Shown one piece after another: positions 1,351 through 26,802 of a stretch of DNA of 64,000 nucleotides. The position numbers and the translations under genes are program-made. Positions within the stretch are counted from its first letter, which is position 1; every line of letters starts with the position of its first letter. Source of the stretch: Symbiodinium sp. CCMP2592 (taxonomy: Eukaryota; Sar; Dinophyceae; Suessiales; Symbiodiniaceae); assembly GCA_905221615.1 (NCBI GenBank), contig CAJNDT010005724.1, positions 201,001 to 265,000 of the forward strand, written 5' to 3'. The notes below the pieces were generated by a model. The model searched no databases. It had not been told where the DNA came from and was given only the letters and a program-made list of their open reading frames with translations.

Positions 1351-3503
1351 AGAGCTGACATGTTCGCTGTCCTTGGCCATGGCCTGGCATCGGGGCTTTG
1401 CATTAAGAGCATGAAGACAATACATCAATCGCAGCTTGCGACTGGCCTTGGGCAATGTGAACACCCGGAAGGCAGCGTCTTCCGAGACTTTCTCGGCGAC
1501 AAGCTTCTCAAATCTTAGTTCCGCAACTCAACAGCGGCCTCCCTGATTCAACATAAATAAAGTCGTCTTCAGCCTTCTAATTCCAGGCCCGCCGCTTTGT
1601 TCGCTGTGGCTTCGATGGAAAGGTTTCCACCGAGTTCAGCGTAAGTCGACCCGAGAGGTCGTTGCAGGGCTTCACAGCTTCCTGGGATTCCAGGATCTCG
1701 AACCGGCAAATCATTTAAAGTGGCCGTTCAATACAACATGCCCAACACAACATGCCGCAGTTTGCACCGGAAAGTGTGCGACAAGGCACCGTGGTGAGGG
1801 CCAGCGGAATCTCCAGAGCTCTTGCGGCGGCGCCCTGAGGTGCTGAACTTTCGGGAGGTTCCAGGCAAAGTCTGCGGCAAGCGCAACTGGTTATGCACAA
1901 GTTGCGTGCATGTGCAACTCAACCATTTTTCGGGCGCCTTGATCACCGCCAGCGCGGCAGCGAAGAAGGGGCTTTCTCTGGTCTCTGCACAAGGCCCTGG
2001 ACTCGGCTCGCGCAGCACCGGCGCAGGGCTGCTTCCCCGCGCGGCCGCACCACCTACGCAGGCAGAAACTCGACTCACATCGAAACGTTTGCCCAGTGCA
2101 CTGCACGCGGCCTCCCGGCGAAGCACCGTCGGCGCACATGACACTGGACCGAGGCTGCCCTACAACCAGGTTTCTATACTAGGCTGGCACCTTGTGACCT
2201 TCGAAGGTTCATGTGCCTTTTTGCTCTGAGGCTTTGCAGCTGCAACCGCACCGAGAAGGCTTGCTCAGCTCAGTCGCAGATACATTCGATGTGCAGTTTC
2301 ACGGTTTCACGGAATGACTGGGCATGGCTGAGTCCTCCACCGACACGCCGAGTGCTCTCCTGCTGCTACTACCATCCACCCGGTACAGAAACTCCATGCT
2401 ACTTTCAGTTGGTACGCCCAGTGCACAACGAACAGATTCGGATCGATGACGAAAACTGATCCACCGCGCTGCCGACTCTAGCACCCATTCAACCCCCTTC
2501 CCCATACTCGCAATCCCACACCAGATGGGAAAAAAGGGCTGAATGTGTCCCTGCCTCTGGCAGCATGAAGCTGTCGTTGCGTTTCGCAAGCGTCTCCTCC
2601 AAATGCATGGCAAATTCAAAGGTGTTCCAACACTAAAATGACTTCGAGCTTGCGGTGCACCTGCAACATGGCCAAGAAGCGCGGCAGTCCTGCAGAATGA
2701 AGGGCATCTGTTCCTGCATTTATATATTGTCCAGACAGAAGAGGCAATCCTGGTGAAAAGCCAGCATGCTGCAAGGCACCGCCACCTGGTCATCTTGCAC
2801 ATAGTTTCACAAGCATCAGCACGGAGTCGCGCACTGTCCGAGCTCCTCACTGAAAGTGCGTTGCGTGACATCTCCTGTGCGCGACTTCCGATTGAGAGTC
2901 TGGTCTAGCTGCGACCTTCATGTAATGTCGAAGCATCTACTGGGATGGGCTTTGGCAGCCCTGAAAATTATTTATGGATCCGGGCTGTTTTTGTGCATCC
3001 ATGTGAATGCAACACCAAGCAGCAATCACTCACTCTTTTTCTCCCGCGATCATGTGGAATGTCAGCAGTGGTAACAAGAAAAACGCGACAATCAGCAGCC
3101 ACTGACACTGGCAGCTCAGACGATGGTGGCCTGCAAGAGCAGGCAGAAACCAAAATCTGTCTTGACACCCTGACAATGGAAGCATTTGACACTCATTCTG
3201 TGTGGCAAGTGCAATAACACACCCAATGCGCACCCCTCCATGCCTGCTCAAAGTTGACACTGATTTCCAGCTGGTAGGCCTGACATAATGGAAACACGTG
3301 ACACTCATTCTGTGTGGCCAGTGCAATAACGCACCCAAGACGCACCCCTCCATGCCTGCTCCAAGTTGACACTGACCTCCAAGACGAAGGCCTGCCATAG
3401 TGGATGCATTTGACACTCATTCTGTGTGGCCAGTACAATAACGCACCCAATACGCACCCCTGCCTGCCTTGTCACAGTTGACACTGATCTCCAGCTGGTA
3501 GGT

Positions 3504-3580
3504 GTGTCAACTTTGAGCACGCATGGAGGGGGCCTATTGGGTCCCAACACACACCCTCCATGCCTGCTCAACGTTGACAC
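3504..3580. repeat. Inverted satellite fragment (foldback)
   Basis: The stretch 3504-3531 (gtgtcaactttgagcacgca followed by tggagggg) is a near reverse complement of the normal satellite segment at 3553-3580 (ccctccatgcctgctcaacg followed by ttgacac). The two are separated by about 21 nt, so a piece of the satellite unit was inverted and the region can fold back on itself. An almost identical structure sits at 4631-4707. Confidence 0.85.
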
Positions 3581-3832
3581 TGATGTCCAGCTGGTAAGCC
3601 TGACATTAAGGAGCAATTGACTCTCATTCTGTGTGGCCAGTACAATAACGCACCCAATACGCAAACCTGCGTGCCTTCTCCAAGTTCACACTGATGTCCA
3701 GGAGGAAGACCTGACTTTAATGGATTGACATTCATCGACATCCACTGCACCGTAACTGCTTGTCGACATGGTGACACTTGGCAGAGGAATCATCAACCAA
3801 AAGAGAGTCATAGCACCAACCAGGCGGCGAGC

Positions 3833-3907
3833 GGCTCATTCAGACCTTGCATGTTGGAACAGTTTTTCTCCGAAAAACTGTTCCAACAGGCAAGGTCTGA
3901 GCGAGCC
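3833..3907. repeat. Large hairpin, copy 1
   Basis: Arms 3841-3868 and 3872-3899 are complementary over 28 nt with one mismatch and a 3-nt loop, extended outward by GGCTCATT/AGCGAGCC with two mismatches. The outer stem CAGACCTTG/CAAGGTCTG is shared with copies 2-4. The inner stem (TTGGAACAGTTTTTC) is unrelated to theirs. Confidence 0.9.
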
Positions 3908-4143
3908 AGCTGACACTTCATTCCATGACAAAGCAGACGGTAAGCCTGACATCACTTGACACTCGTTCTGTGTGGCCAGTACACTAACGCACCGAACACG
4001 CACCCCTCCATCCATGCCTTCTCTAAGTTGACACTGATGCCCAGGAGGAAGACCTGACTTTAGTGAATTGTCGTCGACATGGTGACACTTGGCAGAGGAA
4101 TCATCAACCAAAGCAGAGTCATAGCACCAGCCATGCGGCGAGC

Positions 4144-4220
4144 GGCTCAGTCAGACCTTGACCACTCGAGCAGCTGGACGGTCTGTCCAACTGCTCGACG
4201 AGGCAAGGTCTGAGCGAGCC
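4144..4220. repeat. Large hairpin, copy 2
   Basis: The outer stem GGCTCAGTCAGACCTTG pairs with CAAGGTCTGAGCGAGCC with two mismatches. The inner stem contains TCGAGCAG/CTGCTCGA with a few mismatches. The 17-nt loop itself contains a small GGAC/GTCC stem. Confidence 0.85.
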
Positions 4221-4630
4221 AGCTGACACTTCATTCCATGACAAAGCGAATGGTAAGCCTGACATAATGGAAACATGTGACAATCATTCTGTGTGGCCAG
4301 TACAATACCGCACCCAATTCGCACCCCTCCATGCCTGCTCAAAGTTGACACTGAATGATTGACCATGTGACTCGGTAGGCACCCAATGACATGAAGTACA
4401 CTGATTTCCAAGGCACATAATGTGTGACACTCATTCTGTGTGGCCAGTACAATAACGCACCCAAGACGCCACCCCTCCATGCCTGCTCCAAGTTGACACT
4501 GATCTCCAAGACGAAGGCCTGCCATAGTGGATGCATTTGACACTCATTCTGTGTGGCCAGTACAATAACGCACCCAATACGCACCCCTGCCTGCCTTGTC
4601 ACAGTTGACACTGATCTCCAGCTGGTAGGT

Positions 4631-4707
4631 GTGTCAACTTTGAGCACGCATGGAGGGGGCCTATTGGGTCCCAACACACACCCTCCATGCCTGCTCAAAG
4701 TTGACAC
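4631..4707. repeat. Second copy of the inverted satellite fragment
   Basis: Same arrangement as at 3504-3580, displaced by 1127 bp. It belongs to the duplicated 1.13-kb block, and the right arm here keeps the usual caaagttgacac sequence. Confidence 0.85.
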
Positions 4708-4944
4708 TGATGTCCAGCTGGTAAGCCTGACATTAAGGAGCAATTGACCGGCCAGGACAATAACGCACCCAATACGCAAACCTGCCTGCCTTCTCCAAGT
4801 TGACACTGATGTCCAGGAGGAGGACCTGACTTTAATGGATTGACACTCATCGACATCCACTGCACCGTAACTGCTTGTCGACATGGTGACACTTGGCAGA
4901 GGAATCATCAACCAAAACAGAGTAGCACCAGCCAGGCGGCGAGC

Positions 4945-5021
4945 GGCTCATTCAGACCTTGACAGCTCGAGCAGCTTGACGGTCTGTCAAACTGCTCGAG
5001 GAGTCAAGGTCTGAGAGAGCC
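4945..5021. repeat. Large hairpin, copy 3
   Basis: The outer stem is the same as in the other copies. The inner stem GACAGCTCGAGCAG pairs with CTGCTCGAGGAGTC with two mismatches. The loop contains TTGAC/GTCAA. By position in the duplicated block it corresponds to copy 1, but its inner stem matches copies 2 and 4 instead. Confidence 0.85.
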
Positions 5022-5270
5022 AGCTGACACTTCATTCCATGACAAAGCAGACGGTAAGCCTGACATAACGGAATCACTTGACACTCGTTCTGTGTGGCCA
5101 GTACACTAACGCACCGAACACGCACCCCTCCATCCGTGCCTTCTCTAAGTTGACACTGATGCCCAGGAGGAAGACCTGACTTTAGTGAACTGTCGTCGAC
5201 ATGGTGACACTTGGCAAACTTAAAGGTATCATCAACCAAACAGAGTCATAGCACCAGCCAAGCGGCGAGC

Positions 5271-5347
5271 GGCTCATTCAGACCTTGACAGCTCGAGCAG
5301 CTTAACGGTCTGTCAAACTGCTCGAGCTGTCAAGGTCTGAGCGAGCC
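5271..5347. repeat. Large hairpin, copy 4
   Basis: The most regular copy: CAGACCTTGACAGCTCGAGCAG pairs perfectly with its complement over 22 nt around a 17-nt loop, and the pairing extends outward with two mismatches to GGCTC/GAGCC. As in the other copies the right flank runs into CAGCTGACACTTCA, a segment shared by all four. Confidence 0.9.
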
Positions 5348-8300
5348 AGCTGACACTTCAGCCATGACAAAGCGAATGGTAAGCCTGACATAATGGAAAC
5401 ATGTGACACTCATTCTGTGTGGCCAGTACAATAACGCACCCAATTCGCACCCCTCCATGCCTGCTCCAAGTTGACACTGATTTCCACCTGATAGGCCTGA
5501 CATAATGGAAGCATGTGACACTCGTCATTCTGTGTGGCCAGTACAATAACGCACCCAATTCGCACCCCTCCATGCCTGCTCCAAGTTGACACTGATTTCC
5601 AGCTGGTAGGCCTGACATAATGGAAGCATGTGACACTCATTCTGTGTGGCCAGTACAATAACGCACCCAATTCGCACCCCTCCATGCCTGCTCCAAGTTG
5701 ACACTGATTTCCAGCTGGTAGGCCTGACATAATGGAAGCATGTGACACTCATTCTGTGTGGCCAGTACAATAACGCACCCAATTCGCACCCCTCCATGCC
5801 TGCTCCAAGTTGACACTGATTTCCGCTGGTAGGCCTGACAAAATGGAAGCATGTGACACTCATTCTGTGTGGCCAGTACAATAACGCACCCAAGACGCAC
5901 CCCTCCATGCCTGCTTCAAGTTGACACTGATTTCCACCTGATAGGCCTGACATAATAGAAGCATGTGACACTCATTCTGTGTGGCCAGTACAATAACGCA
6001 CCCAATTCGCACCCCTCCATGCCTGCTCCAAGTTGACACCGATTTCCAGCTGGTAGGCCTGACATAGTGGACGCATGTGACACTCATTCTGTGTGGCCAG
6101 TACAATAACGCACCCAATTCGCACCCCTCCATGCCTGCTCCAAGTTGACACTGATCTCCAGCTGGTAGGCCTGACAGAATGGAAGCATGTGACACTCATT
6201 CTGTGTGGCCAGTACAATAACGCACCCAATTCGCACCCCTCCATGCCTGCTCCAAGTTGACACTGATTTCCAGCTGGTAGGACTGACATAATGGAAGCAT
6301 GTGACACTCATTCTGTGTGGCCAGTACAATAACGCACCCAATTCGCACCCCTCCATGCCTGCTCCAAGTTGACACTGATTTCCCGCTGGTAGGCTTGACA
6401 GAATGGAAGCATGTGACACTCATTCTGTGTGGCCAGTACAATAACGCACCCAATTCGCACCCCTCCATGCCTGCTCCAAGTAGACACTGATTTCCAGCTG
6501 GTAGGCCTGACAGAATGGAAGCATGTGACACTCATTCTGTGTGGCCAGTACAATAACGCACCCAATTCACACCCCTCCATGCCTGCTCCAAGTTGACACT
6601 GATTTCCAGCTGGTAGGCCTGACATAATGGAAGCATGTGACACTCATTCTGTGTGGCCAGTACAATAACGCACCCGAGTCGCACCCCTCCATGCCTGCTC
6701 CAAGTTGACACTGATTTCCACCTGATAGGCCTGACATAATGGAAGCATGTGACACTCATTCTGTGTGGCCAGTACAGTAACGCCCCCAAGACGCACCCCT
6801 CCATGCCTGCTCAAAGTTGACACTGATTTCCAGCTGGTAGGCCTGACATAATGGAAGCATGTGACACTCATTCTGTGTGGCCAGTACAATAACGCACCCG
6901 ATTCGCACCCCTCCATGCCTGCTCCAAGTTGACACTGATTTCCACCTGATAGGCCTGACATAATGGAAGCATGTGACAATCATTCTGTGTGGCCAGTACA
7001 ATAACGCACCCAATTCGCACCCCTCCATGCCTGCTCCAAGTTGACACTGATTTCCAGCTGGTAGGCCTGACATAATGGAAGCATGTGACATTCATTCTGT
7101 GTGGCCAGTACAATAACGCACCCAATTCGCACCCCTCCATGCCTGCTCCAAGTTGACACTGATTTCCAGCTGGTAGGCCTGACAGAATGGAAGCATGTGA
7201 CACTCATTCTGTGTGGCCAGTACAATAACGCACCCAAGACGCACCCCTCCATGCCTGCTTCAAGTTGACACTGATTTCCACCTGATAGGCCTGACATAAT
7301 AGAAGCATGTGACACTCATTCTGTGTGGCCAGTACAATAATGCACCCAATTCGCACCCCTCCATGCCTGCTCCAAGTTGACACTGATTTCCAGCTGGTAG
7401 GCCCGACATAGTGGAAGCATGTGACACTCATTCTGTGTGGCCAGTACAATAACGCATCCAATTCGCATCCCTCCATGCCTGCTCCAAGTTGACACTGATT
7501 TCCAGCTGGTAGGCCTGACATAATGGAAGCATGTGACACTCATTCTGTGTGGCCAGTACAATAACGCACCCAAGTCGCACCCCTCCATGCCTGCTCCAAG
7601 TTGACACTGATTTCCAGCTGATAGGCCTGACATAATGGAAGCATGTGACACTCATTCTGTGTGGCCAGTACAATAACGCACCCAATTCGCACCCCTCCAT
7701 GCCTGCTCCAAGTTGACACTGATTTCCGGCTGGTAGGCTTGACAGAATGGAAGCATGTGACACTCATTCTGTGTGGCCAGTACAATAACGCACCCAAGAC
7801 GCACCCCTCCATGCCTGCTCAAAGTTGACACTGATTTCCAGCTGGTGGGCCTGACATAATTTAATGGAAGCGTGTGACACTCATTCTGTGTGGCCAGTAC
7901 AATAACGCACCCAATTCGCACCCCTCCATGCCTGCTCCAAGTTGACACTGATTTCCAGCTGGTAGGCCTGACATAGTGGAAACATTTGACACTCATTCTG
8001 TGTGGCCAGTACAATAACGCACCCAAGACGCACCCCTCCATCCCTGCTCAAAGTTGACACTGATTTCCACCTGATAGGCCTGACATAATGGAAGCATGTG
8101 ACACTCATTCTGTGTGGCCAGTACAATAACGCACCCAAGACGCACCCCTCCATGCCTGCTCCAAGTTGACACTGATTTCCAGCTGGTAGGTCTGACACAA
8201 TGGAAGCGTTTGACACTCATTCTGTGTGGCCAGTACCATAACGCACCCAATGCAAACCCCGTCCAAGCCTGCTTCAAGTTGACACTGATCTCCAAAAGGT

Positions 8301-8929
8301 GGGCCTGAGAAGGGCAGGCAATGACAGACAGTTAAAAACAAAAGCACATGGCGGAAGCAGGCACTGACACCTGCAGTTTCTTTTCAATTGCCGAATGACG
8401 CTGCCTTTGACGGCAAGCTGATTGACTCTGGCGTTTTGCAAAGAATAGCGGACCCCGTTTGACACTGAATCATACTATTCGACAATGTCAATGACGATGT
8501 GACACTGGGTACTGCCCTGCTGGTACCTGAAACAAAATTCCAGCACGTGACTCTAAAATCGACACGATGACACTGACTGACACTCACTGGTCTTCACCAG
8601 ACGCAATGACAGCTGTGTCTTCCATGTCAGAAGCAAAAAGCGTGGCCGGGGGAGTCTTTGCCTCTCCGACCCTATCCTTGGTGCTGACAGTGACACTGAT
8701 TTCCTTGGCAAGATCTGGGTCCGTCTTTGCGAGCGATCGTTTGACCACTGACTGGGTCTCCATGACCAGCGCTCGCTTCCTGCCCAGGATGAGGGCAGAA
8801 AGATGTTAGGATGTTCAAAATAAAACAGACATAAACACGACTGCAAGGTGCAATTTGACCTATCATGTTATACAAAGACAACCGAATGCAACTGAATGTA
8901 AACGACCTCATTGAAAACCACGAACTGAC

Positions 8930-8947
8930 ATATATATATATATATAC
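8930..8947. repeat. (TA)n microsatellite
   Basis: A run of TATATATATATATATAC inside an AT-rich patch (8810-9130) that separates the last word-rich satellite-like DNA from the open stretch ending at 9201. Confidence 0.95.
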
Positions 8948-9200
8948 AATATTGTAAACATTGTGATAATTATTGTAAAACTTAAAAGTTGGCATGTTAA
9001 ATCCTGATAAGTGTTGCTTATTCATAATAAATAAGACTATATTGTACTCAATATTATGTTTGACAAAAGTACTTTAAAAAATATGTAATAATATATGACA
9101 ATTCAATGTCTAGAATATTTATTATGGCCAGTTATTGTTCTTAGCCGACTTGTTTGCTGCTAGCAAAAAACGACTATTACTGTTCACCATCTTTACTAAA

Positions 9201-9780
9201 CTAGACCCTCGTGGACTTAATAGTAATTATGATACCTGGCCTGTTTTCCTGACTCTTCGACAGGATGGGGCGGAGATCCAAGAATTCCTCGGACGTGAGC
9301 CTGACCCTCACAAACTGTGACTTGACCTCCGTGGCATGGTCGAGGAGAGCATTCACAGCTTGACGCTGGCCCGTGAGGACAGAATAGCCCACAAAGCATG
9401 ACGTCTGCGGAACCACATCCAGGCTCAGCTGACGACTGGAGTGGTGGAGCAAGACTTCGGATGGCCATGACAACTTTGCAATACAACGATTGCAACCGAG
9501 AACACCTTTGGTCTGGAGTCGCCAGGCCATGCCAGCATCTGACACTGATTCGAACAAGACGATGTTGTCATGACCCTCCACACAGTAGGTCTGTTCGTGA
9601 CTCTTGGTGTTTGTCTTCATGAAGTTGAACATTGTAAAAAAGTCTGACGACTGTGGAGGCCATTTTTGACACTCCTTTATCATCACACAGTAGTAGGTGA
9701 AGGAAACGTCGTTCTTGTCCATGACACTTTGCCTGATGGAGTGCTCCGACACCACTTGACATGCTCCTGTGACGTTCCTT
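9201..9780 (-). CDS. Possible exon, unidentified protein
   Basis: A stop-free stretch of about 190 codons on the minus strand with an ordinary mixed amino-acid composition (Cys, Trp and charged residues spread evenly). It contains pieces such as SVMDKNDVSFTYYCVMIKEC and DGVLF-like hydrophobic segments. I do not recognise a family. It is the longest non-repetitive frame in this word-rich region and has the same orientation as the other candidate exons at 9.9-13.9 kb. A caution: the abundant TGAC word becomes GTCA on this strand, which creates no stops in any frame, so long open frames are favoured by composition alone. Confidence 0.4.
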
Positions 9781-9889
9781 GCAAACTTGACGCTGGAGAA
9801 GATACCTCAGGGTGTCACTCAGAGATGACACTGAGGATGAATGGTACAGGAATGTTGTTGATTGGTAAGTCAGGTCCAGTATAAACTAC

Positions 9890-10330
9890 AGTCTTTCAAA
9901 AAGAGACATGTTTAGAAACTTCTCGAGGATGACACTGCTGCAGTAGCAGCACATCGAACTGAACACAAATGGAACACTCCCAAACCGAGTCAAGTGACAG
10001 CTCATGACACTGAGCTTCGTCTGCTGCTCCGGGCCCCCCGCAAGAACGGTCAGGGCACGGTTGCAAGTGACGCTGGCACCCCCCGATGGAGTCAAGATGC
10101 CATCACAGAAAGCCCTCTGGGCCTCCACCCCCAGTGTGATGGACAACATGACTCTGGAATCGCGAAATGTCTGCAGAGCACGGGGGGTTACTGACTCTAA
10201 GGTTGGCTCGTGACACATCGACGTTGAGAATCCCAAGCGTCTCGCTGACACTGACAGGCTGTCCTCCGGGTTTGATATTTTCGGAAGGTTGAGGAAGTTA
10301 CTACCTTCTGTTTGGTGAAGTTGACTCTGA
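9890..10330 (-). CDS. Possible exon, unidentified protein
   Basis: An open stretch of about 145 codons on the minus strand. It would follow the candidate donor at 10478-10486 and a stretch containing plausible AG acceptors near 10330. It contains PTLESVTPRALQTFRDSRV, and a Gly/Ala/Thr-rich segment follows. No family is recognised. If real it belongs to the same transcript as 10487-10669. Confidence 0.35.
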
Positions 10331-10486
10331 TTTATAGTATTGCTTTTTTGTGCATACACAAATAACAACAGTAACAACAATTAGCTACTATGGTAGCTAT
10401 TATTTTGAATTATTACACTGGTTTTAGTTTCAGCGAGTTGCCTTCTGACAACTCCTAAGTTGAACCTGAAGTACTTACCTGTGTGT

Positions 10487-10669
10487 CTGTCGTTGCTGCA
10501 GGATGCTCAAGACATTTAACCCTGCTGATAGCAAACACTGTAAACTCTGACAGGGCACGTAGAAAGCAGCCAGCTCACTCTGGTGGAAAACCGTCCCTTT
10601 CTTGACACTGAAGTCCGCCGCAGTGGGGACAAAGTCTCTTTTGGAAAGACAGGCGTAGAAGGTCGCCAT
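10487..10669 (-). CDS. Possible exon ending at a canonical splice donor
   Basis: A minus-strand frame of about 60 codons (MATFYACLSKRDFVPTAADF at its start) runs into CACACAG|GTAAGTAC, a textbook GT donor, at 10486/10478. The coding-like frame and the donor coincide, which is the best single sign of a spliced gene in this region. Product unknown. Confidence 0.4.
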
Positions 10670-11076
10670 GACTCTGCAACTGACAACAAGGGATCAGAAA
10701 GGGACACGGACGGCAATGACACTGACAGACTGGAGCCAAGAAGCCGCAGTGACCACTGGCATTTCATCTTGACAGACCAACAAATGACAACTGCTTTAGC
10801 AACCACCTCAACTGCTGAGCCTCGGACAGCAATGGCAATGATCGGACCATGGAAACCTGGCAACTGACAGCTGCACAGTCAGTGCTTGGCAGTGTTCTGA
10901 CTCATCTTTTTTGAATGGCGCTGCAGCTCTTGACGCTCAGCAGCATGCATCCGTGTCTAGTGACACTGAACGCACGGGCATTCTTATTAATTAAAGTTGG
11001 ATTGACACTGCCACTGCCACACAGGTTCCACATCCCCGGTGGATCCCAAAAGCAGCTCGGGCTCCAAGTGACACGA

Positions 11077-11424
11077 CTAACACTGGATGATGAAGGCGTT
11101 CTTTCGTTCAAGGAACCCTGCGACCTTCTGACTCTGAATCTGTGAAACAGAGCAGGACACCTCGACATCACTCTGAGTCTGACTCTGAGTCTGCGAGTCC
11201 GAGCATGACATCTGCACATCGCCAGACTGTGGGCGAGGTGTCGTCATAATAATATCATCGTGACCCTCGGCCTTCGCCTCCGACACTGAACCTTCACCAG
11301 AACACTGGGCCTGCTTCTTTGACTCTGCAGCCATTCTCGCATCATACCTGTCGGCACATTCGATGACCCTGGTGAGGCGGTCTTCCAACAGCTTGGCATT
11401 CGCCCACACCTCGGATGATGTCAA
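11077..11424 (-). CDS. Possible exon, Ser/Gln-rich unidentified protein
   Basis: A minus-strand frame beginning SSEVWANAKLLEDRLTRVIE, a helical-looking stretch, followed by a Ser/Gln-rich tail with repeated SQTQSQ. A possible donor (CAG|GTATGATG) lies inside it near 11350, so only the first part may be coding. No family recognised. Part of the Ser/Gln repetition is caused by the TGACTCT word, which is read AGAGTCA on this strand. Confidence 0.3.
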   Translation of the reverse strand: MTSSEVWANAKLLEDRLTRVIECADRYDARMAAESKKQAQCSGEGSVSEAKAEGHDDIIMTTPRPQSGDVQMSCSDSQTQSQTQSDVEVSCSVSQIQSQKVAGFLERKNAFIIQC

Positions 11425-11750
11425 CTAGCTAGTGTTGTTTATTAACTGTTGCAGAGTAATATCACAACAGTCAGTCATTACGACCATCAGCTGTAGCTGC
11501 TGCTGCAGTTATAACGACGACAAGAACTGTCAGACTAATAATAAAATAATCAGAACAACATATTCGAGAAATCATACTCATTCGTCATTGATAGACAGTG
11601 AATGACACCTGCTGTTTCACATCGTAAGTACAGACAGACTCTACTATCTTCCCATCACAATCAATAAAGCCGGGCACAAATCACATCCACAGTGACAAGC
11701 AGATTAGGTCTAAGTCTAAACTCAATAAATATGACTACTGTTAAACGTTA

Positions 11751-12023
11751 CTATCCAGTGCAAGGAGCTGACACTCGCAACTCGTCACGTCTTCGCCTCA
11801 GCCTTTCCACCGAGTATCGCCCTTCGTCCACCCAGTTCGTGATGACTCTCCATCCTTGACGCTTCTTATGACTCTGGGCTGGCTCTGACATCCTGCAGAC
11901 CATCTTGGACTCTAAAAGGGCGGTGACACTGTAACTCTGAGAGGCCGAAACAGCAACATTATTGTTGTGCACACTGCGACACTGCTGTCGTAAATGACGC
12001 AATTCAACCAAGGATTCTGACAC
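11751..12023 (-). CDS. Possible exon, unidentified protein
   Basis: An 80-90 codon minus-strand frame with a mixed composition, including a basic helix-like end (YSVERLRRRRDELRVSAP). Unassigned. Grouped with the other minus-strand frames at 12.2-13.9 kb only because of shared strand and absence of stops. Confidence 0.3.
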   Translation of the reverse strand: MSESLVELRHLRQQCRSVHNNNVAVSASQSYSVTALLESKMVCRMSEPAQSHKKRQGWRVITNWVDEGRYSVERLRRRRDELRVSAPCTG

Positions 12024-13674
12024 TGCCTGACACTGTCCAAATCATGCCAGGTAAGCCACGAAGCAATGGAGCTTTGACCCTGGCACGGTTAGCGTTCGTG
12101 CGGGGTTCGGCAGGGTTTGTTACATGCTCTGTGCCTGTTGCTGCAAATGAATGACTCTGACAATGAATCACAGGTGCACTATGTCATGAAGCAGCAGTTC
12201 AAACCAAGGACAAAACCCCAGGGATTCCTGCTGAATCTAACATGACACCTGTTGCCTGCCACATGGGGAAAGACAGAACAGGCCTCGCAACTTCCCCATC
12301 GTCTGACACTGACCTCACAGAGAAAGGAGATATAATTGGTGCTGCGTTGTGACACTTTCACCCTGAATCATGTCGTCGAAAAGTTAACACCTTCAGCATA
12401 TTCAGGCTGTGTTCCCAAAGCCGTGCATCAGACACTGAATCTGCATCAGAATGCCGTCTCACAACATGACTGACTGAGAAAACTGTTAAACAGAGTGTGC
12501 CAGTAACACTGTACTCTTGCATTGGATGCTCCAAGCATACAGGCAATGTTGCTCGACCACGATGGACCCATCATGTGACATACCCACAAGAGCAAAGGAG
12601 CAACTGTTCGAACGTCTGAGGCTGACACATGCTATTGCTTGCCGGCTTTGGCTGCTTTGCAGCTTCATCGCCTGCAGTGACTGATGCTCTGAGATACCAC
12701 TCCGAATGTCCCAGCACACAGGACTGACTCAGCGACAAAGTCAGTGTCATTGTTCGTTAAATACTGTTTAACTGTGACTAGTGAATTAAATATTCAGATC
12801 CCAGCTCCCTTCTGCAGTTGCGACATGACACTCAGCCCCAGGAAACATGGCAAGCACTTCCAAGCTGTTTGAGGTCACACTCACCCTCTGGAAGCTGAGC
12901 CTTCTGCAAGGCCGAGCAATTGGACCATGACACTGACCTGGATCGGACACAGTTGGTGTATGTGTGAGACAATGATTACGACCAATAGTGTCATAGCAAT
13001 AAATTATACTATTATTGTCTGACACTTCACACGTGCCACAACCATTCAACCGGCATGGCCTCGCCCAAGGTAGGTCGGTGTTCCAGCTGCTCCTTGGTCT
13101 GACAGCTTAGAGGCTTAGAGAGACATGGAACGACTCCACATTGAGGAATCTTGGCTGAAACTATTAATAAGTGTCCATAACCCTCCCATGTGTCAAAGAC
13201 CAGTCTCCTTTCACATAAGAGCCATCAACATAAGCAGCAAAAGACAGTCAGTGCCTCAATGACACAGTGTGCAGCCTCAGAAAATAGTGGCATGCCAATA
13301 CGAAGGCCCAGGACTCTGAGACTGCTGCTTTGCCCAGCAAACGTAGCAGCACTTCGGAGCCGCAGTATGACACTGACACCTCGGAGATACATGGTCAGGA
13401 GGCAGTGCTGTGATCTGAGTGTGCAAGGTGACACTACTGGGCAAAATCTCTCCCGAAGCACGCACGACAACCACGGTTTAACAATGCCCCTGCACACTCA
13501 AAATAAGCAGGTGTCCTTTTTTCCACAATGACACCTGCCATCTCATGTGGGAAGACCACAACGTGACGTCTTCACGTGACACACCCACACTGGCAAAGTC
13601 GGCAATGACTCACTGCAGTCGAGCTGTGACACTAAGCCTTCAAGTCAGCAGTGTGACCACTGACCCTGACATCG

Positions 13675-13957
13675 CTAATCGACATCAAAAGCACGGTGCA
13701 GTGCATAACGCTTGCCCCAACCAGACGTTGATCGCCGAAGCTTCGTCCGAGACCGTGACGCTTCATGCCTAGCAGACTTTCTTGACTTCTTGCCGAGCTT
13801 CTTCTTGGTCTTCTTCGCAAGCACCCTCCTGACTCTCTTTCTTGAACCCTTCTGATTCGGTAGCGACTGTGACTCTGCAAAGAGTGGTAGAAGCAAAGCC
13901 TTGTCGAAGTTGTCTGGTAACACTGGCCGTCCATTGTTTCGCATGTCCTTGACTCTG
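13675..13957 (-). CDS. Lys/Arg-rich exon truncated by the assembly gap
   Basis: A minus-strand frame enters from the N gap and runs to a stop at 13675. It reads NNGRPVLPDNFDKALLLPLF and then a strongly basic tract (KKTKKKLGKKSRKSARH). The basic tail would suit a nucleic-acid-binding or nuclear protein, but this is inference from composition only. The N-terminal side is missing because of the gap. Confidence 0.35.
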
Positions 13958-14057
13958 NNNNNNNNNNNNNNNNNNNNNNNNNNNNNNNNNNNNNNNNNNN
14001 NNNNNNNNNNNNNNNNNNNNNNNNNNNNNNNNNNNNNNNNNNNNNNNNNNNNNNNNN
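13958..14057. other. Assembly gap (100 N)
   Basis: Exactly 100 Ns, the conventional placeholder for a scaffold join of unknown length. Sequence character changes across it: the TGACNCT-rich DNA stops and a different tandem repeat begins, so adjacency of the two sides is not proven by this sequence. Confidence 0.99.
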
Positions 14058-22269: not shown

Positions 22270-25200
22270 CTAAGTACGCACAATACGCATTATCTTACGA
22301 GCTACACTGTCGGATACGCTGTTGAACGAGCTGACGAACTGATGATCCTGATAGAGGGAATTATGGAGACAAAGGAAGGCATCGCCTTGACTCTGCAGTA
22401 GATCCTCATGCATGTAAAAGTCCAGCAGAACTCCGAAGAACTCCAACTGTATCCAGGTGACCCACGTCGCTACAACCTCTGCAAGAGTGCCAGCCCTGCA
22501 AAACGTTTGAAAACCCTCAGCCACATGCAACCAATGGATACTGCAGGAGTCGCTGTGGCATTGCACAAATAAGCCCAGCCGCCACGGGACTTCGAGTCGG
22601 AAGATGTCTCTCCAGCGCTCTGTAGAGATAGGGTGCAATATGGGATGCAAGTGTTCGTAGATATGTTGGTGCCGATCGTACTCCGTATGCCAAGCTTGCC
22701 TATCTTGGGCTAAGGCCTCAAGGGCTACGGGGCCTCGGTCACTGGTGTTGCAACCCCACTGCAGAATATGGTGGAATGGTCCAGGTCGTGCTTGTTTGAG
22801 ATGGCCAAGCGATAAAACCTCTTGTTGGACTAAAGCCGTCGCACCCATACGCAGCACGTGTCCTAAATACATCCATCGCCTTCTACACCAGATTGAAACC
22901 CATTGTGAGCGAGGACAGTGGTTCAGGACGAGTAGTACCGTGCGCCGGCGAAGGCGATGCAGGAAAAGGGCTGCTTGCTCGTCGAGGTCGTTCGGTATGA
23001 ACAAACCAAAAAGCATCGTCAAGAACGTAACCTGCTGAGACCGAACCCTGGAGATGTACTTCGAGAGTGGTTCCATCAGAGGACTATACCAGTACCACGT
23101 ACCACCGATGTAGGTGTTGCACAGACGGACGGTGCTGGACAAGTCCGACCAATGACCTCTGCGCATGCATCGTTGCAAGGACTCGAAGGCTGCGTGCGTA
23201 GCCCTGCCAAGCGCATCGAGAAGAACTGCTGTGGTGTCCGCAAAGCCACCCTTGCCTCCCACTTCATAATGAGTGATCGTCTTCTTGAGATAACTGCAGG
23301 ACGTACCCCACTTGATTTGTACAAGAATTGATTCCGGAGGAAAGCTAACCGAAGCACCTTGGAGTAATACCGACTGGTGGGACATTAAGGTGGTCTTCTT
23401 GAGATTCAGTCGCAACCCCAAACTCTTCAGGACTTGTCGCAGTTCTTCGGTCAGCGCGATGGCCTGTTGCCAGCTATCGAAGGCCAGCAAGAGATCGTCC
23501 ATGAACAGAAGAATGATGGAGGAGTGGCGTGTGCTTTCGCCTCTCTCTCGCCATGCGAGCTCAAGCTTTTGGCATGCAAGGCCTAAGACATAAGAGAATA
23601 TGATAGCACTGTGGCTGCCACCCTGCTGAACTCCAGTGCCCTGTCTAAGCTTGAAAGAGAATCCCTTCCACTCGAAAGAAAGCGAAGGCATCGTCAGAAG
23701 TCTGAGCATCTGAAGCGCCTCACTGCCGTGCTGAACCCCACACTCATCCAGGAGGAACTGTGCTACAACAGCGTGGTCTAATGCATCGAAAGCCGTCTGG
23801 ATGTCGCATGACAAATAAAGACTGTATTGGACCTCCTTGGAATCTCTAGTGGTTCTGCACTGTGCTGTCATGAGCGCATCGCATACTTGCGAGCCCTTGA
23901 TGCCTCCCAGCTGCACTGACGGGGCATGCCAAGTGGCTGTGAGGCGGGTGGTTAGAAGCCAGCAAAAAACCTTGTTGAGGCACTCGAGCAGATTAATCGG
24001 GCGATAATCACTTGGCCCAGTGATAGAAATGACTTTGGGTATCAAGGTCACCTGGGCCTCGCAAAGTGCAGACGGGAGGTCGTCTGTGCGGAGCAAGCGG
24101 TTGAGGAAATCGCACAGCAGCTGTTGTCCATCGTCAAGCTCCCAGAGGCTAAGCAGGTATTCGTTGGACATGCCTGACGGGCCTGAGGTTTTGCAGGGCC
24201 GTAATCTATCGATGCAAGGTTTGATCTCCTCAATAGTGAAGTCCGGGCTGGGGGCTGTACGAGAACGTTCCGAAAACACTCTGGTAGCTTCACGAATAAC
24301 GGCTTGTTGGCTTGCAGCGGCGGGTTGTTGAAACAAGTGCTCGTAATGGTTCTTCAAGGCATCAGCTGCATGGGAGAGGCTACCTGCGCTGGCGACAAAC
24401 TCATCGATGTTGCCCTTGTGTTGCGAGTAGCGTTGCTTGAGGTATTTGATGGCTTGGGCGTCGCCTTCCCTGCTCCTCTGATGCAGATTCTGAAGCCAGC
24501 AAGTCTTCTCGACATGACGGAGTGAAATGATATGTCTCGTAAGCGTAGCTCTCTCCGCAGGGTCAGCGGACATGCGTCTGTTAAGGCATAGTGATTTAAG
24601 GGCGGGGCTGTCAACATATTTCATGGTACCGCTGGGCACCGAAACATGCTGAGCTGATGACGCCAATACCTCCCACTGGCCCTGGATGTCAGGCGCCGTC
24701 GCATATCTCGTGCAAACATCACTGATGCTGCTGCGGAGCCTCTCGGCATCCACCTTCCATCTCTTGCACTTGCCCCGACGATATCTTTTGTTGTGTCTGC
24801 TGCCGTCGTCCTTCTGGGAAGCCAGTGACGGGTCATGAAGGGCAACAAGGAGTGAGATACAACAGTGATCGCTACCCAACTCGTTTCGTGTTTGAGGGTG
24901 TGGGCTAACCTCAAGGCTTTCATGGTCTGGCAAGGCAATGTCGAGAAGCGCCCTGTTACAGCAGAAGTAATCCAGCTCTGACTGGGAGTTTCTGCCCCAC
25001 CGAGTAGTCTCACAGGTCCGCAACACTCTGCCGCCTCTGAGCTGAACACACGAGAAAAATTCAATGGCTCTTTCACTACCTGGATCGCAATTAAAGTCAC
25101 CAAGGAGAATGATTGGTAGATGTTTGTACTGTACCATGAGCTGTACCAATTCCCTTAAGGACTCTTGATAAAGCTCGTCCGAATTGTCACTGTGAGGGAG

Positions 25201-25620
25201 GTGGCACGACGCAAAAATACATGGCTGCTTCATAGTAACCAGTTGCACTTCCACTGCCAAGAATATATCACCACGCCAGGCTGAGCACACATGTTGCACA
25301 CTCTCGCTCTGAAGTAAGATCACTTGTCCAAGGTGGGAATTGCAGCTAGTTGTGCCGACTGCCACGTAGTCACGAATTGAATCGAAGTCTCTGAGAAGAT
25401 ACTGGTGAACGTCCGGTGCGAAATCTTTAATTATGGAAAGAGAACCGAGCTGACCAACTTCTTGTAACCCAACAACGTCATAGAAGTCCCCAACCTCGTC
25501 ATACCAGTGATCGAAATGATGTAAGGCTTTACCTTGGACATTCCAAGAAGCAAACCTGTGAAAATGCACATCGGTGTTCCGGTATCTTCGCTTCTCATGC
25601 ACAGAGGGTCTGTCGGGCCT
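22270..25620 (-). CDS. LINE ORF2: endonuclease-reverse transcriptase
   Basis: About 1,116 codons follow directly in frame after the ORF1 stop. Residue numbers count from the GTG at 25602. The N-terminus is an exonuclease-endonuclease-phosphatase domain with N21 (SWNVQG), E48 (LQEV), H134, D169 and N171 (LLGDFN), D211 (SELDYF) and S244-D245-H246, a complete catalytic set for nicking target DNA. The reverse transcriptase spans about 510-760, with D600 in CDIQTAFD, VQQGGSHSAIIFSYVL as motif B and F700-M-D-D as the active box. The C-terminal 350 residues contain WCRRRWMYLGHVLRM, a pattern common in LINE tails. I see no RNase H and no CCHC knuckle. There is no ATG before residue 124, downstream of several catalytic residues, so translation probably depends on ORF1 (readthrough or reinitiation), or the TGA is a recent mutation. 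Confidence 0.95.
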   Translation of the reverse strand, partial: RPDRPSVHEKRRYRNTDVHFHRFASWNVQGKALHHFDHWYDEVGDFYDVVGLQEVGQLGSLSIIKDFAPDVHQYLLRDFDSIRDYVAVGTTSCNSHLGQVILLQSESVQHVCSAWRGDIFLAVEVQLVTMKQPCIFASCHLPHSDNSDELYQESLRELVQLMVQYKHLPIILLGDFNCDPGSERAIEFFSCVQLRGGRVLRTCETTRWGRNSQSELDYFCCNRALLDIALPDHESLEVSPHPQTRNELGSDHCCISLLVALHDPSLASQKDDGSRHNKRYRRGKCKRWKVDAERLRSSISDVCTRYATAPDIQGQWEVLASSAQHVSVPSGTMKYVDSPALKSLCLNRRMSADPAERATLTRHIISLRHVEKTCWLQNLHQRSREGDAQAIKYLKQRYSQHKGNIDEFVASAGSLSHAADALKNHYEHLFQQPAAASQQAVIREATRVFSERSRTAPSPDFTIEEIKPCIDRLRPCKTSGPSGMSNEYLLSLWELDDGQQLLCDFLNRLLRTDDLPSALCEAQVTLIPKVISITGPSDYRPINLLECLNKVFCWLLTTRLTATWHAPSVQLGGIKGSQVCDALMTAQCRTTRDSKEVQYSLYLSCDIQTAFDALDHAVVAQFLLDECGVQHGSEALQMLRLLTMPSLSFEWKGFSFKLRQGTGVQQGGSHSAIIFSYVLGLACQKLELAWRERGESTRHSSIILLFMDDLLLAFDSWQQAIALTEELRQVLKSLGLRLNLKKTTLMSHQSVLLQGASVSFPPESILVQIKWGTSCSYLKKTITHYEVGGKGGFADTTAVLLDALGRATHAAFESLQRCMRRGHWSDLSSTVRLCNTYIGGTWYWYSPLMEPLSKYISRVRSQQVTFLTMLFGLFIPNDLDEQAALFLHRLRRRTVLLVLNHCPRSQWVSIWCRRRWMYLGHVLRMGATALVQQEVLSLGHLKQARPGPFHHILQWGCNTSDRGPVALEALAQDRQAWHTEYDRHQHIYEHLHPILHPISTERWRDIFRLEVPWRLGLFVQCHSDSCSIHWLHVAEGFQTFCRAGTLAEVVATWVTWIQLEFFGVLLDFYMHEDLLQSQGDAFLCLHNSLYQDHQFVSSFNSVSDSVARKIMRIVRT

Positions 25621-26748
25621 TCAGGGGGAAGCGAGCTGTCTCTCGACCTCAGCCTCGGGCTTCCCGGCAGCACTGGCGAGCGCGGTAAGATTGACATGGA
25701 AAGGCGTATGCTCACCATACTCGTCTCGCACTTGGCGTATCATCAAACGATTGTCTCTTGCAGCCATTAAGGCGGGAGCCGTCACAGCAGCCACTCTCGT
25801 TTTACCACACCAAATGATTTGTCTGCTCCAGTCAACATCATCCGTCTGATGTGGACTACCAGTGATGTCAGCGATGAGGCGGCCGATCTCGCGTGTAGCC
25901 CTATTCTTCTTCCGGACCTCGGGTGGCTTGCTCGGCGAGAAGTAACTTGTGCCCGTATTGGTCTTAACTCTGCTTCCGTGTTTTTCTTGGATGGCGTAGA
26001 AACGAGCACGAGCCTGGTCCGGAGGGAGGCTTTGTAAGAAGACATGGCCAGTCCGAGCCCTTTGATTGTAGACCACGATCTTCGAAACGGCCGCCTTCTC
26101 TGCCTGATCCCAGTGGGCTAGGTTTTCGGTGATCGCATCCTGAATGTGCTTCTTCGGGGTATCGTTCTCCCAACCTCCTACCACGATATGGTTGTAATCG
26201 GTGGCGTCGTTGGCATCGGGCTTGGGAGCTGACGGGTGTGAAAGGGAAAGGTCTTGGTGCCGCGCAGTCGGGGCCTGCCCCGCGCTTGTCCCCAATGCCG
26301 CCCGCTGCTCACGGTAGCGCATCCAAGGGTCTGTGGTCGGCACGTCGTTGGAAACAACAAAGGCTCCAGGCATGGGAGATGGAGGGGGAACGGCGTTGAA
26401 ACCGTGATCGGCCCTTGACCCCTTTGAGACTGCATCGATCCTATCATTCAGCTCGTCGAGCCGCTTGTGCACCTCAGAGATATCTTGTTTGCGATCTTCG
26501 CGTTCTCTTTGGAGCTGGTCTCCCATGGCAGAGACGGAGTTGCTTATGTCTCTCACTTCCGAACGTAACACCATCTGAAACTGCTCCTGGAAATGTTGCA
26601 TCCATGCAGGCATTGCCTCGGCACTGCGCGAAACTGCAAGGGTTACTTCTTCCGCTGGTTGCTTTCGCTTCAGCTGACCTCCAGGAACTTCCATGGGCTC
26701 GTCTTCACTCGGGCATGGGAGCTCTGCAGCTTCTTCTTCAGCGGCCAT
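25621..26748 (-). CDS. LINE ORF1 protein
   Basis: 375 codons from ATG 26748 (MAAEEEAAELP). An acidic N-terminus is followed by a probable coiled coil at about residues 45-105 (EVRDISNSVSAMGDQLQRER, then a heptad-like LDELNDRIDAV). A Pro-rich linker follows, then a domain at about 180-330 that starts NHIVVGGWENDTPKKHIQDA and has alternating beta/alpha character resembling an RNA-recognition fold. This layout, coiled coil plus RNA-binding module, is that of LINE ORF1 chaperone proteins that coat the element RNA. The frame closes with TGA (CCC TGA AGG) and the endonuclease continues in the same frame. The family is inferred from position and layout, not from a decisive motif. Confidence 0.8.
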   Translation of the reverse strand: MAAEEEAAELPCPSEDEPMEVPGGQLKRKQPAEEVTLAVSRSAEAMPAWMQHFQEQFQMVLRSEVRDISNSVSAMGDQLQREREDRKQDISEVHKRLDELNDRIDAVSKGSRADHGFNAVPPPSPMPGAFVVSNDVPTTDPWMRYREQRAALGTSAGQAPTARHQDLSLSHPSAPKPDANDATDYNHIVVGGWENDTPKKHIQDAITENLAHWDQAEKAAVSKIVVYNQRARTGHVFLQSLPPDQARARFYAIQEKHGSRVKTNTGTSYFSPSKPPEVRKKNRATREIGRLIADITGSPHQTDDVDWSRQIIWCGKTRVAAVTAPALMAARDNRLMIRQVRDEYGEHTPFHVNLTALASAAGKPEAEVERQLASP

Positions 26749-26802
26749 GATCACTCGAATACCCTAAGTCCTCGACCTGAAACCTCGAGCCCAAACTTGA
26801 GC

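Follow-up and report, generated by a model that had tools for sequence, protein, structure and literature searches.

How the sequence of a long, perfect stem can change while the stem stays paired is an old question in the study of RNA evolution. It is raised here by four large hairpins in the dinoflagellate Symbiodinium sp. CCMP2592, one of which differs from the others in its inner stem on both arms. We analysed the 64,000-nt stretch of DNA that holds them (the window; GenBank assembly GCA_905221615.1, contig CAJNDT010005724.1, positions 201,001-265,000), together with copies of the locus elsewhere in the genome; coordinates are those of the window unless another locus is named. Dozens of near-identical copies make this locus a natural experiment in which one hairpin position has undergone a two-armed swap, one has changed on one arm, and two have hardly changed. 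What do the hairpins belong to, and what could exchange a stem while leaving it paired?

Four hairpins with a common outer stem

The four hairpins lie where a preliminary description of this DNA had placed them, at 3833-3907, 4144-4220, 4945-5021 and 5271-5347 (75, 77, 77 and 77 nt; none assigned to a strand). All are near-perfect, with arms of 36 nt, and their outer stem is identical in all four; the pattern CAGACCTTG-N(41-43)-CAAGGTCTG occurs four times in the window, against a mean of 0.00 in 100 shuffles. Folded as DNA (95-97 nt), hairpins 1-4 had z scores of -9.6, -6.1, -7.9 and -7.0, and for each of them none of 200 shuffles folded as well. RNA folds likewise beat their shuffles, with z scores from -6.9 to -12.7 across 12 folds on both strands, two of which belong to a right-end hairpin described below. 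Hairpins 1 and 3 occupy equivalent sites of a 1.11-1.13 kb duplication, also as first described. Rfam families gave no match to the 64-kb window at the gathering threshold.

Genome-wide, the palindrome was found at 213 places compared with 2 in a reversed control, and together with its flanks at 198 compared with 0; at least one of the places listed (on contig C646) is a chance match. A 47-base match of the form CAGACCTTGC...CAAGGTCTG at G000:C4778:132478-132524 has another length and may be another type of hairpin or a chance match.

The left end of a giant dispersed element

The isolated satellite setting given in the preliminary description did not hold up. The hairpins belong to the left end of a dispersed element and lie 0.9-2.4 kb from its exact left end at window position 2940. 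From a search of the genome (1.098 Gb, 5,383 contigs) with hairpin 1, we fetched 20 copies out of the best 40 of the 213 candidates, a sample in which elements with the window's own hairpin 1 stem (A-type, see below) are over-represented. Homology starts at window 2934-2940 in 19 of the 20, with different host DNA before it, and the remaining copy (L021) is shorter. All four slices that were long enough match the window as far as 13957, two shorter slices match to their own ends, and the copies stay alike past the gap in the window. The copy on C990 departs from the others, its slices at least 24 kb right of window 12000 having no match and at most one copy each of the motif described below; this copy is shorter or rearranged.

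We located the right end by comparing two copies, and a genome search gave 100% identity in 40 of 40 scored right ends, out of 60 candidates. The 11 copies read at both ends are 24.4-43.1 kb long, start with CTGGG and end with CCCAG. Ten of these 11 have an exact 4-bp target duplication, the one without it being the copy on C3402; four of the ten duplications sit in repetitive flanks (TA, T and A runs, TTTAGGG-like DNA) and six are clear. From the 213 palindrome places, at about four per element, and the 60 right-end candidates, a copy number of about 50-60 is inferred.

Within the window, the left part of the element covers 2940-13957 (no strand assigned). It opens with the left terminus CTGGGAT and a small terminal inverted repeat, GGGCT-TTGGC-AGCCC at 2947-2961 (together 2940-2961, plus strand); the right terminus ends in ..CCCAG. 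The host bases adjoining the left end, TCTA (2936-2939, plus strand), are probably the left copy of a 4-bp target-site duplication whose right copy is made unreadable in the window by the assembly gap. A 112-bp tandem repeat of 2.9 copies (3175-3502, plus strand) is followed by a separate long hairpin of repeat-unit sequence (3504-3580, 38-nt arms, 84%), and a second copy of this hairpin lies at 4631-4707 (38-nt arms, 87%), neither being assigned to a strand. Beyond hairpin 4, a 112-bp tandem array of 26 copies (5377-8308, plus strand) holds TGACACT twice in its consensus unit. The element is then cut by a 100-base assembly gap of N (13958-14057, no strand), to the right of which motif counts are host-like.

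The sequence right of this gap is not element, and the scaffold join may hide the remainder of the element or be wrong. It includes a LINE-like element at 22270-26754 on the minus strand, with a 1,110-aa ORF for reverse transcriptase and endonuclease (22270-25602) and, upstream of that, a 377-aa ORF without a Pfam match.

Inverted repeats with arms of at least 25 numbered 11 or more in the element pieces searched, and the 50 kb of the window from 14058 to 64000 contained none with such arms and a spacer of up to 90. A near-perfect hairpin of 63 bp (L074:3917-3979, 31-nt arms, 94%) lies about 140 bp from the right end, within the stretch common to all 40 scored right ends and close to a tandem array (330 bp, 9.9 copies). 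More long hairpins were seen inside the element, at L055:6054-6161 and at L056:3335-3403, 3588-3646 and 8544-8600.

Replacement of the stem of hairpin 1

Hairpin 1 carries one of two inner stems, the window's stem A (TGTTGGAACAGTTTTTC) in 14 of the 20 fetched loci and a second stem, B1, in the other 6. One A-type element (L011) also has B1, at its hairpin 3, and for this reason we take B1 to be probably the older state. An assembly error is excluded for hairpin 1 because the inner-arm 17-mer TGTTGGAACAGTTTTTC recurs in 16 contigs: all of its 31 occurrences in the genome (16 forward, 15 reverse) are in this hairpin, and the window's own contig is among the 16. The window's element does stop at an assembly gap, which might point to a local misassembly or a polymerase fold-back product, but with stem A so widespread, and with no two flanks alike among the 13 A-type left ends that were read, the chance of such an artefact is negligible.

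Stem A had been called wholly unrelated to the stem of the other copies. In register with B1, it matches at 11 of 19 positions of the left arm and 12 of 19 of the right (23/38), an agreement with P = 0.0005 against pair-preserving shuffles and P = 0.0006 against random perfect palindromes, and the two stems align gap-free outside the loop. From their sequences, A and B1 look like diverged homologues within one transposon family, and the idea of a foldback element with variable cargo was not borne out. The earlier interpretation stood in its other part, that both arms changed together with pairing kept: A and B1 differ by six double changes, all from one Watson-Crick pair to another, and by three one-sided changes, two of Watson-Crick/wobble type and one between a mismatch and a pair. 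The preliminary description was thus right about the hairpins, their shared outer stem, their place in the duplication and the two-armed difference, and wrong about the unrelated stem and the satellite.

The replacement is confined to a short tract. When A-type left ends (the window and 13 loci) were compared with B-type left ends (5 loci, L024 left out), 84 of 1,337 columns differed. Eighteen of these lie in the inner part of hairpin 1, as 16 substitutions (39% of 41 bases) and a 2-base loop gap, and the rest amounts to about 26 substitutions over some 1,290 flanking columns (2%) and five indels. In body slices, the B-type element on C1276 was 99.5-100% identical to three A-type elements, and two A-type copies showed up to 1.0% difference between them. 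Because the inner bases differ by 39%, compared with 2% in the flanks and 0-0.5% in the body slices, we conclude that both arms changed together. Beyond the outer stems, the first differences met are those at 3819 and 3902; they are spaced no more closely than elsewhere, so the swapped tract need not exceed the inner stem. No intermediate between A and B1 was present among the 14 A and 6 B1 loci fetched; the A hairpin on C3671 has one uncompensated change, on one arm. That hairpin 1 was replaced locally and with its pairing preserved is well documented here.

A donor of stem A was not found. Across the whole genome the exact 17-mer occurs only in the hairpins, and with up to two mismatches there were 495 matches compared with 217 in a reversed control, a count raised by arrays on C231 and C711 and by the hairpins' own sequence; none among the matches listed is a donor. 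The element pieces searched contained nothing similar. Eight places with one-mismatch variants were read and rejected, six being copies (of eight) of an unrelated non-hairpin repeat and two being singletons. As no donor came to light, a diverged, lost or foreign relative must be assumed.

Variation at hairpins 2-4 and conservation of pairing

Nineteen elements, the window's and those of 18 loci, have all four hairpins (L021 and L024 were dropped). The inner part of hairpin 2 is the same in 18 of the 19, the window copy having one base different, and that of hairpin 4 is the same in all 19. Hairpin 3 has seven inner haplotypes compared with two flank haplotypes. All five of its variable inner columns are in the left half and the right half is invariant; the left arm has small deletions, its one-armed forms leave mismatches, and their left arms resemble the left arms of hairpins 2 and 4. 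Inner arms that vary independently, which the preliminary description held to speak against its own reading, were therefore found at position 3, where the left half alone varies and mismatches are left, while elsewhere pairing is mostly kept.

The A and B alleles of position 1 and the two commonest alleles of position 3 occur in all four combinations among the 18 loci. Such combinations can arise by reassortment between elements or by recurrent conversion, and because they do not in themselves prove exchange between elements, our confidence in the explanation preferred below is lowered.

The inner forms of the window and 20 loci give 12 distinct hairpins (forms seen only in the genome palindrome listing were left out). 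Across these, 9 of 34 pairs have double changes, a number reached by none of 500 shuffles. Relatedness alone can beat shuffles. Slid controls, which retain relatedness, had 1-2 double-changed pairs for plus and 1-4 for minus, although a structure derived from the sequences themselves tends to exceed such controls, above all in the number of cells paired. Pairing is conserved at most positions and is not enforced everywhere, and much of the variation can be accounted for by ordinary exchange between hairpins of the element's copies.

As RNA, the hairpins pair better on the minus strand, with 96.5% of cells paired compared with 92.6% on the plus strand. Window hairpins 1-4 fold at -62.4, -64.7, -66.4 and -73.2 kcal/mol as minus-strand RNA and at -61.4, -57.2, -62.1 and -63.1 kcal/mol as plus-strand RNA. 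For B1 the two strands hardly differ (-61.7 on plus, -61.1 on minus), and for the right-end hairpin plus is the better-folding strand; the strand argument comes down to about three wobble events that favour minus and one that favours plus.

A one-strand heptamer and the element's ORFs

The heptamer TGACNCT saturates the whole element on one strand at 10-15 per kb and stops at the element ends (window 2940-13957; L055, L056, L074, L075). The window's part (2940-13960) has 135 on the plus strand and 5 on the minus strand, some of them in the tandem repeats, and a 10-kb piece (L055) has 147 forward and 4 reverse where 10.4 are expected on both strands together. Counts in the host flanks (11 and 10 in 74 kb from 19 copies) and in the 50 kb of the window beyond the gap (6 and 11) are at chance level. 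Among 328 gaps between heptamers in three stretches outside the main arrays, 167 measured 30-64 bp (91 expected), 12 were under 20 bp (53.5 expected) and 54 were 100 bp or longer (92 expected). A spacing of 30-65 bp is thus preferred and not strict; strict regularity was rejected on a gap coefficient of variation of 1.00, which is due to some long gaps. We also rejected a codon-level cause. In 8 kb of minus-strand ORFs the three frames hold 54, 51 and 41 heptamers, which places the constraint at the level of DNA or RNA and not of protein. No eukaryotic mobile element is known to be filled with a heptamer in this way across coding and non-coding parts, and a strand-polar heptamer over 24-43 kb is a clear, testable feature.

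The longest ORFs are on the minus strand in the two element pieces read. Pfam, PHROGs and homology searches of the ORFs scanned, from part of the element, gave no domain above cut-off, and no transposase was recognised in these ORFs when scanned singly, introns being likely. One ORF piece (L055:1094-1675, minus strand) had a weak likeness to C5 cytosine DNA methylases (E 0.18, below threshold). The searches found no homologue of a 494-aa ORF. For a 459-aa ORF they found two, one of which is in Symbiodinium sp. CCMP2592 (Symbiodiniaceae) with 28% identity over 81%; IMG/VR contained no relative of it, and the predicted structure of the ORF's relative has a mean pLDDT of 34.9, too low to be of use. 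A Volvox microRNA locus, considered as the identity of the sequence, was dropped after the Symbiodinium protein match. A relation to viruses was rejected as well: 18 IMG/VR stretches with the bare palindrome pattern are chance matches, their inner parts pairing at no more than 11 of 24 positions and their motif counts being low.

How the stems could have been exchanged

The explanation we prefer, at roughly even odds of being correct, is that the hairpins are a subterminal non-coding module of a recently spread giant transposon, that their stems are exchanged among element copies, and that their pairing is that of a structured RNA of the minus strand. The transposon, 24-43 kb long with short inverted termini and 4-bp target duplications, would have spread through this dinoflagellate genome in recent times. 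With B1 as the older state at hairpin 1, A would have arrived as a unit from a diverged and unseen relative, brought in by ectopic recombination or by template switching, and the one-armed forms of hairpin 3 may derive, through exchange, from hairpins 2 and 4, whether of the same copy or of another. The outer stems would provide the homology for exchange, and this would account for the one-armed forms, the allele combinations and the whole-stem swap together. The conserved pairing would then reflect a structured RNA read near the 3' end of the element's coding strand, which is minus, and not a DNA cruciform. Fold-back template switching may help to keep the arms matched but would supply no new letters.

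This last process could also be put forward as the whole cause. In fold-back template switching during replication, the nascent strand copies the opposite arm and several pairs are rewritten at once without selection, and the published mechanism predicts clustered, multi-base compensatory changes, and perfect stems, from one event (PMC8794818). Hairpin 3, with many more inner than flank haplotypes and with small left-arm deletions, would be a local hotspot of it. Template switching equalises arms, however, and cannot supply the letters of stem A, neither arm of which was found elsewhere, and the changes at hairpin 3 leave mismatches rather than repair them; we consider it unlikely to be the main process. 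Ordinary compensatory evolution in steps, driven by selection for a structured RNA and with no exchange, would likewise produce the excess of double-changed pairs over shuffles. It is improbable given an inner hairpin that has changed by 39% beside flanks and body slices that have hardly changed, the lack of intermediates among the fetched loci, and the near constancy of hairpins 2 and 4.

Two further readings concern what the hairpins do. They may be precursors of siRNA-like or miRNA-like small RNAs within a transposon, in which by analogy with rice miR820 the outer stem would be a processing scaffold and the inner stem an exchangeable guide. Near-perfect hairpins of 75-77 nt with 36-nt arms, better paired in minus-strand RNA, are consistent with this. 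Symbiodinium microadriaticum is reported to have a single Dicer homologue, three Argonaute homologues and small-RNA precursors 80-90 nt long, perfectly paired siRNA hairpins among them (PMC3853145), and miR820 offers a precedent of a small RNA made inside a CACTA transposon and targeting a host methyltransferase (PMC3459959). We nevertheless think it a rather unlikely function, as the 17-nt sequence of stem A has no exact match outside the hairpins, its few distinct one-mismatch matches are about what chance would give by arithmetic (a control-free estimate), and broken pairs are tolerated at hairpin 3. A role in DNA, with hairpins or cruciforms as recognition sites in transposition or replication of the element, would suit the long hairpins near both ends (0.9-2.4 kb from the left, about 140 bp from the right) and the inverted repeats that abound in the element pieces and are missing from the 50 kb right of the gap. 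Hairpins also occur in mid-element, however (L055:6054-6161, L056:3335-3403), and most of the C x A mismatches of the plus strand pair, as G-U, only in minus-strand RNA, which leaves the DNA role doubtful as well.

If the inner stems do yield small RNAs, the element would be a transposon with exchangeable guides. Going beyond the preferred explanation of stems exchanged among transposon copies, the element could represent an undescribed class of giant dinoflagellate transposons, marked over their whole length, coding parts included, by a one-strand, quasi-regularly spaced recognition heptamer, and near their end by hairpin cassettes that swap inner stems as complementary units and serve as exchangeable small-RNA or structural-RNA modules; we offer this as a speculation with a small chance of being right.

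Comparison with known systems

The element is an unclassified giant transposon. Its fixed ends and target duplication of constant length are those of a TIR-type DNA transposon, and it is not named among the literature matches listed, a coverage outside which most subscription journals fall. CACTA/EnSpm elements have termini CACTA/CACTG, a 3-bp duplication, dense short subterminal motifs and tandem repeats near their ends. Our element is like them in its terminal repeats, its dense short motif and the tandem repeats near its ends. Unlike them, it ends in CTGGG/CCCAG, makes a 4-bp duplication and carries its motif over the whole length on one strand, and a CACTA transposase was not found in the scanned ORFs.

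Polintons/Mavericks make a duplication of about 6 bp and encode a protein-primed PolB, an integrase and capsid proteins. They share with the element a size of tens of kb, terminal repeats and many copies in protists; the element differs in its 4-bp duplication and very short terminal inverted repeats, and polymerase, integrase and capsid domains were absent from the ORFs scanned, which cover part of it. Helitrons make no target duplication and have a 3' hairpin and a CTRR end, and the 4-bp duplications set the element apart from them.

The heptamer recalls self-recognition by the VANDAL transposons of Arabidopsis, whose anti-silencing protein VANC is encoded by the element, binds the motif and removes silencing, and in which the motif is likewise element-specific, dense and of one orientation (here 147 and 4 in 10 kb, with 11 and 10 in 74 kb of host DNA). 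VANC motifs are mainly non-coding, whereas TGACNCT fills the coding parts too and has no frame preference, and the resemblance, drawn by analogy, is a likeness and not membership.

For the hairpins themselves, the closest comparisons are with RNA. As in the template-switch RNA hairpins described in PMC8794818, compensatory changes are clustered in a way that one mutation event could produce; unlike in those hairpins, the new stem letters here have no visible template in their own hairpin, and the variation spans dispersed copies. And like the rice CACTA element that contains pre-miR820 (PMC3459959), this transposon may carry a small-RNA precursor.
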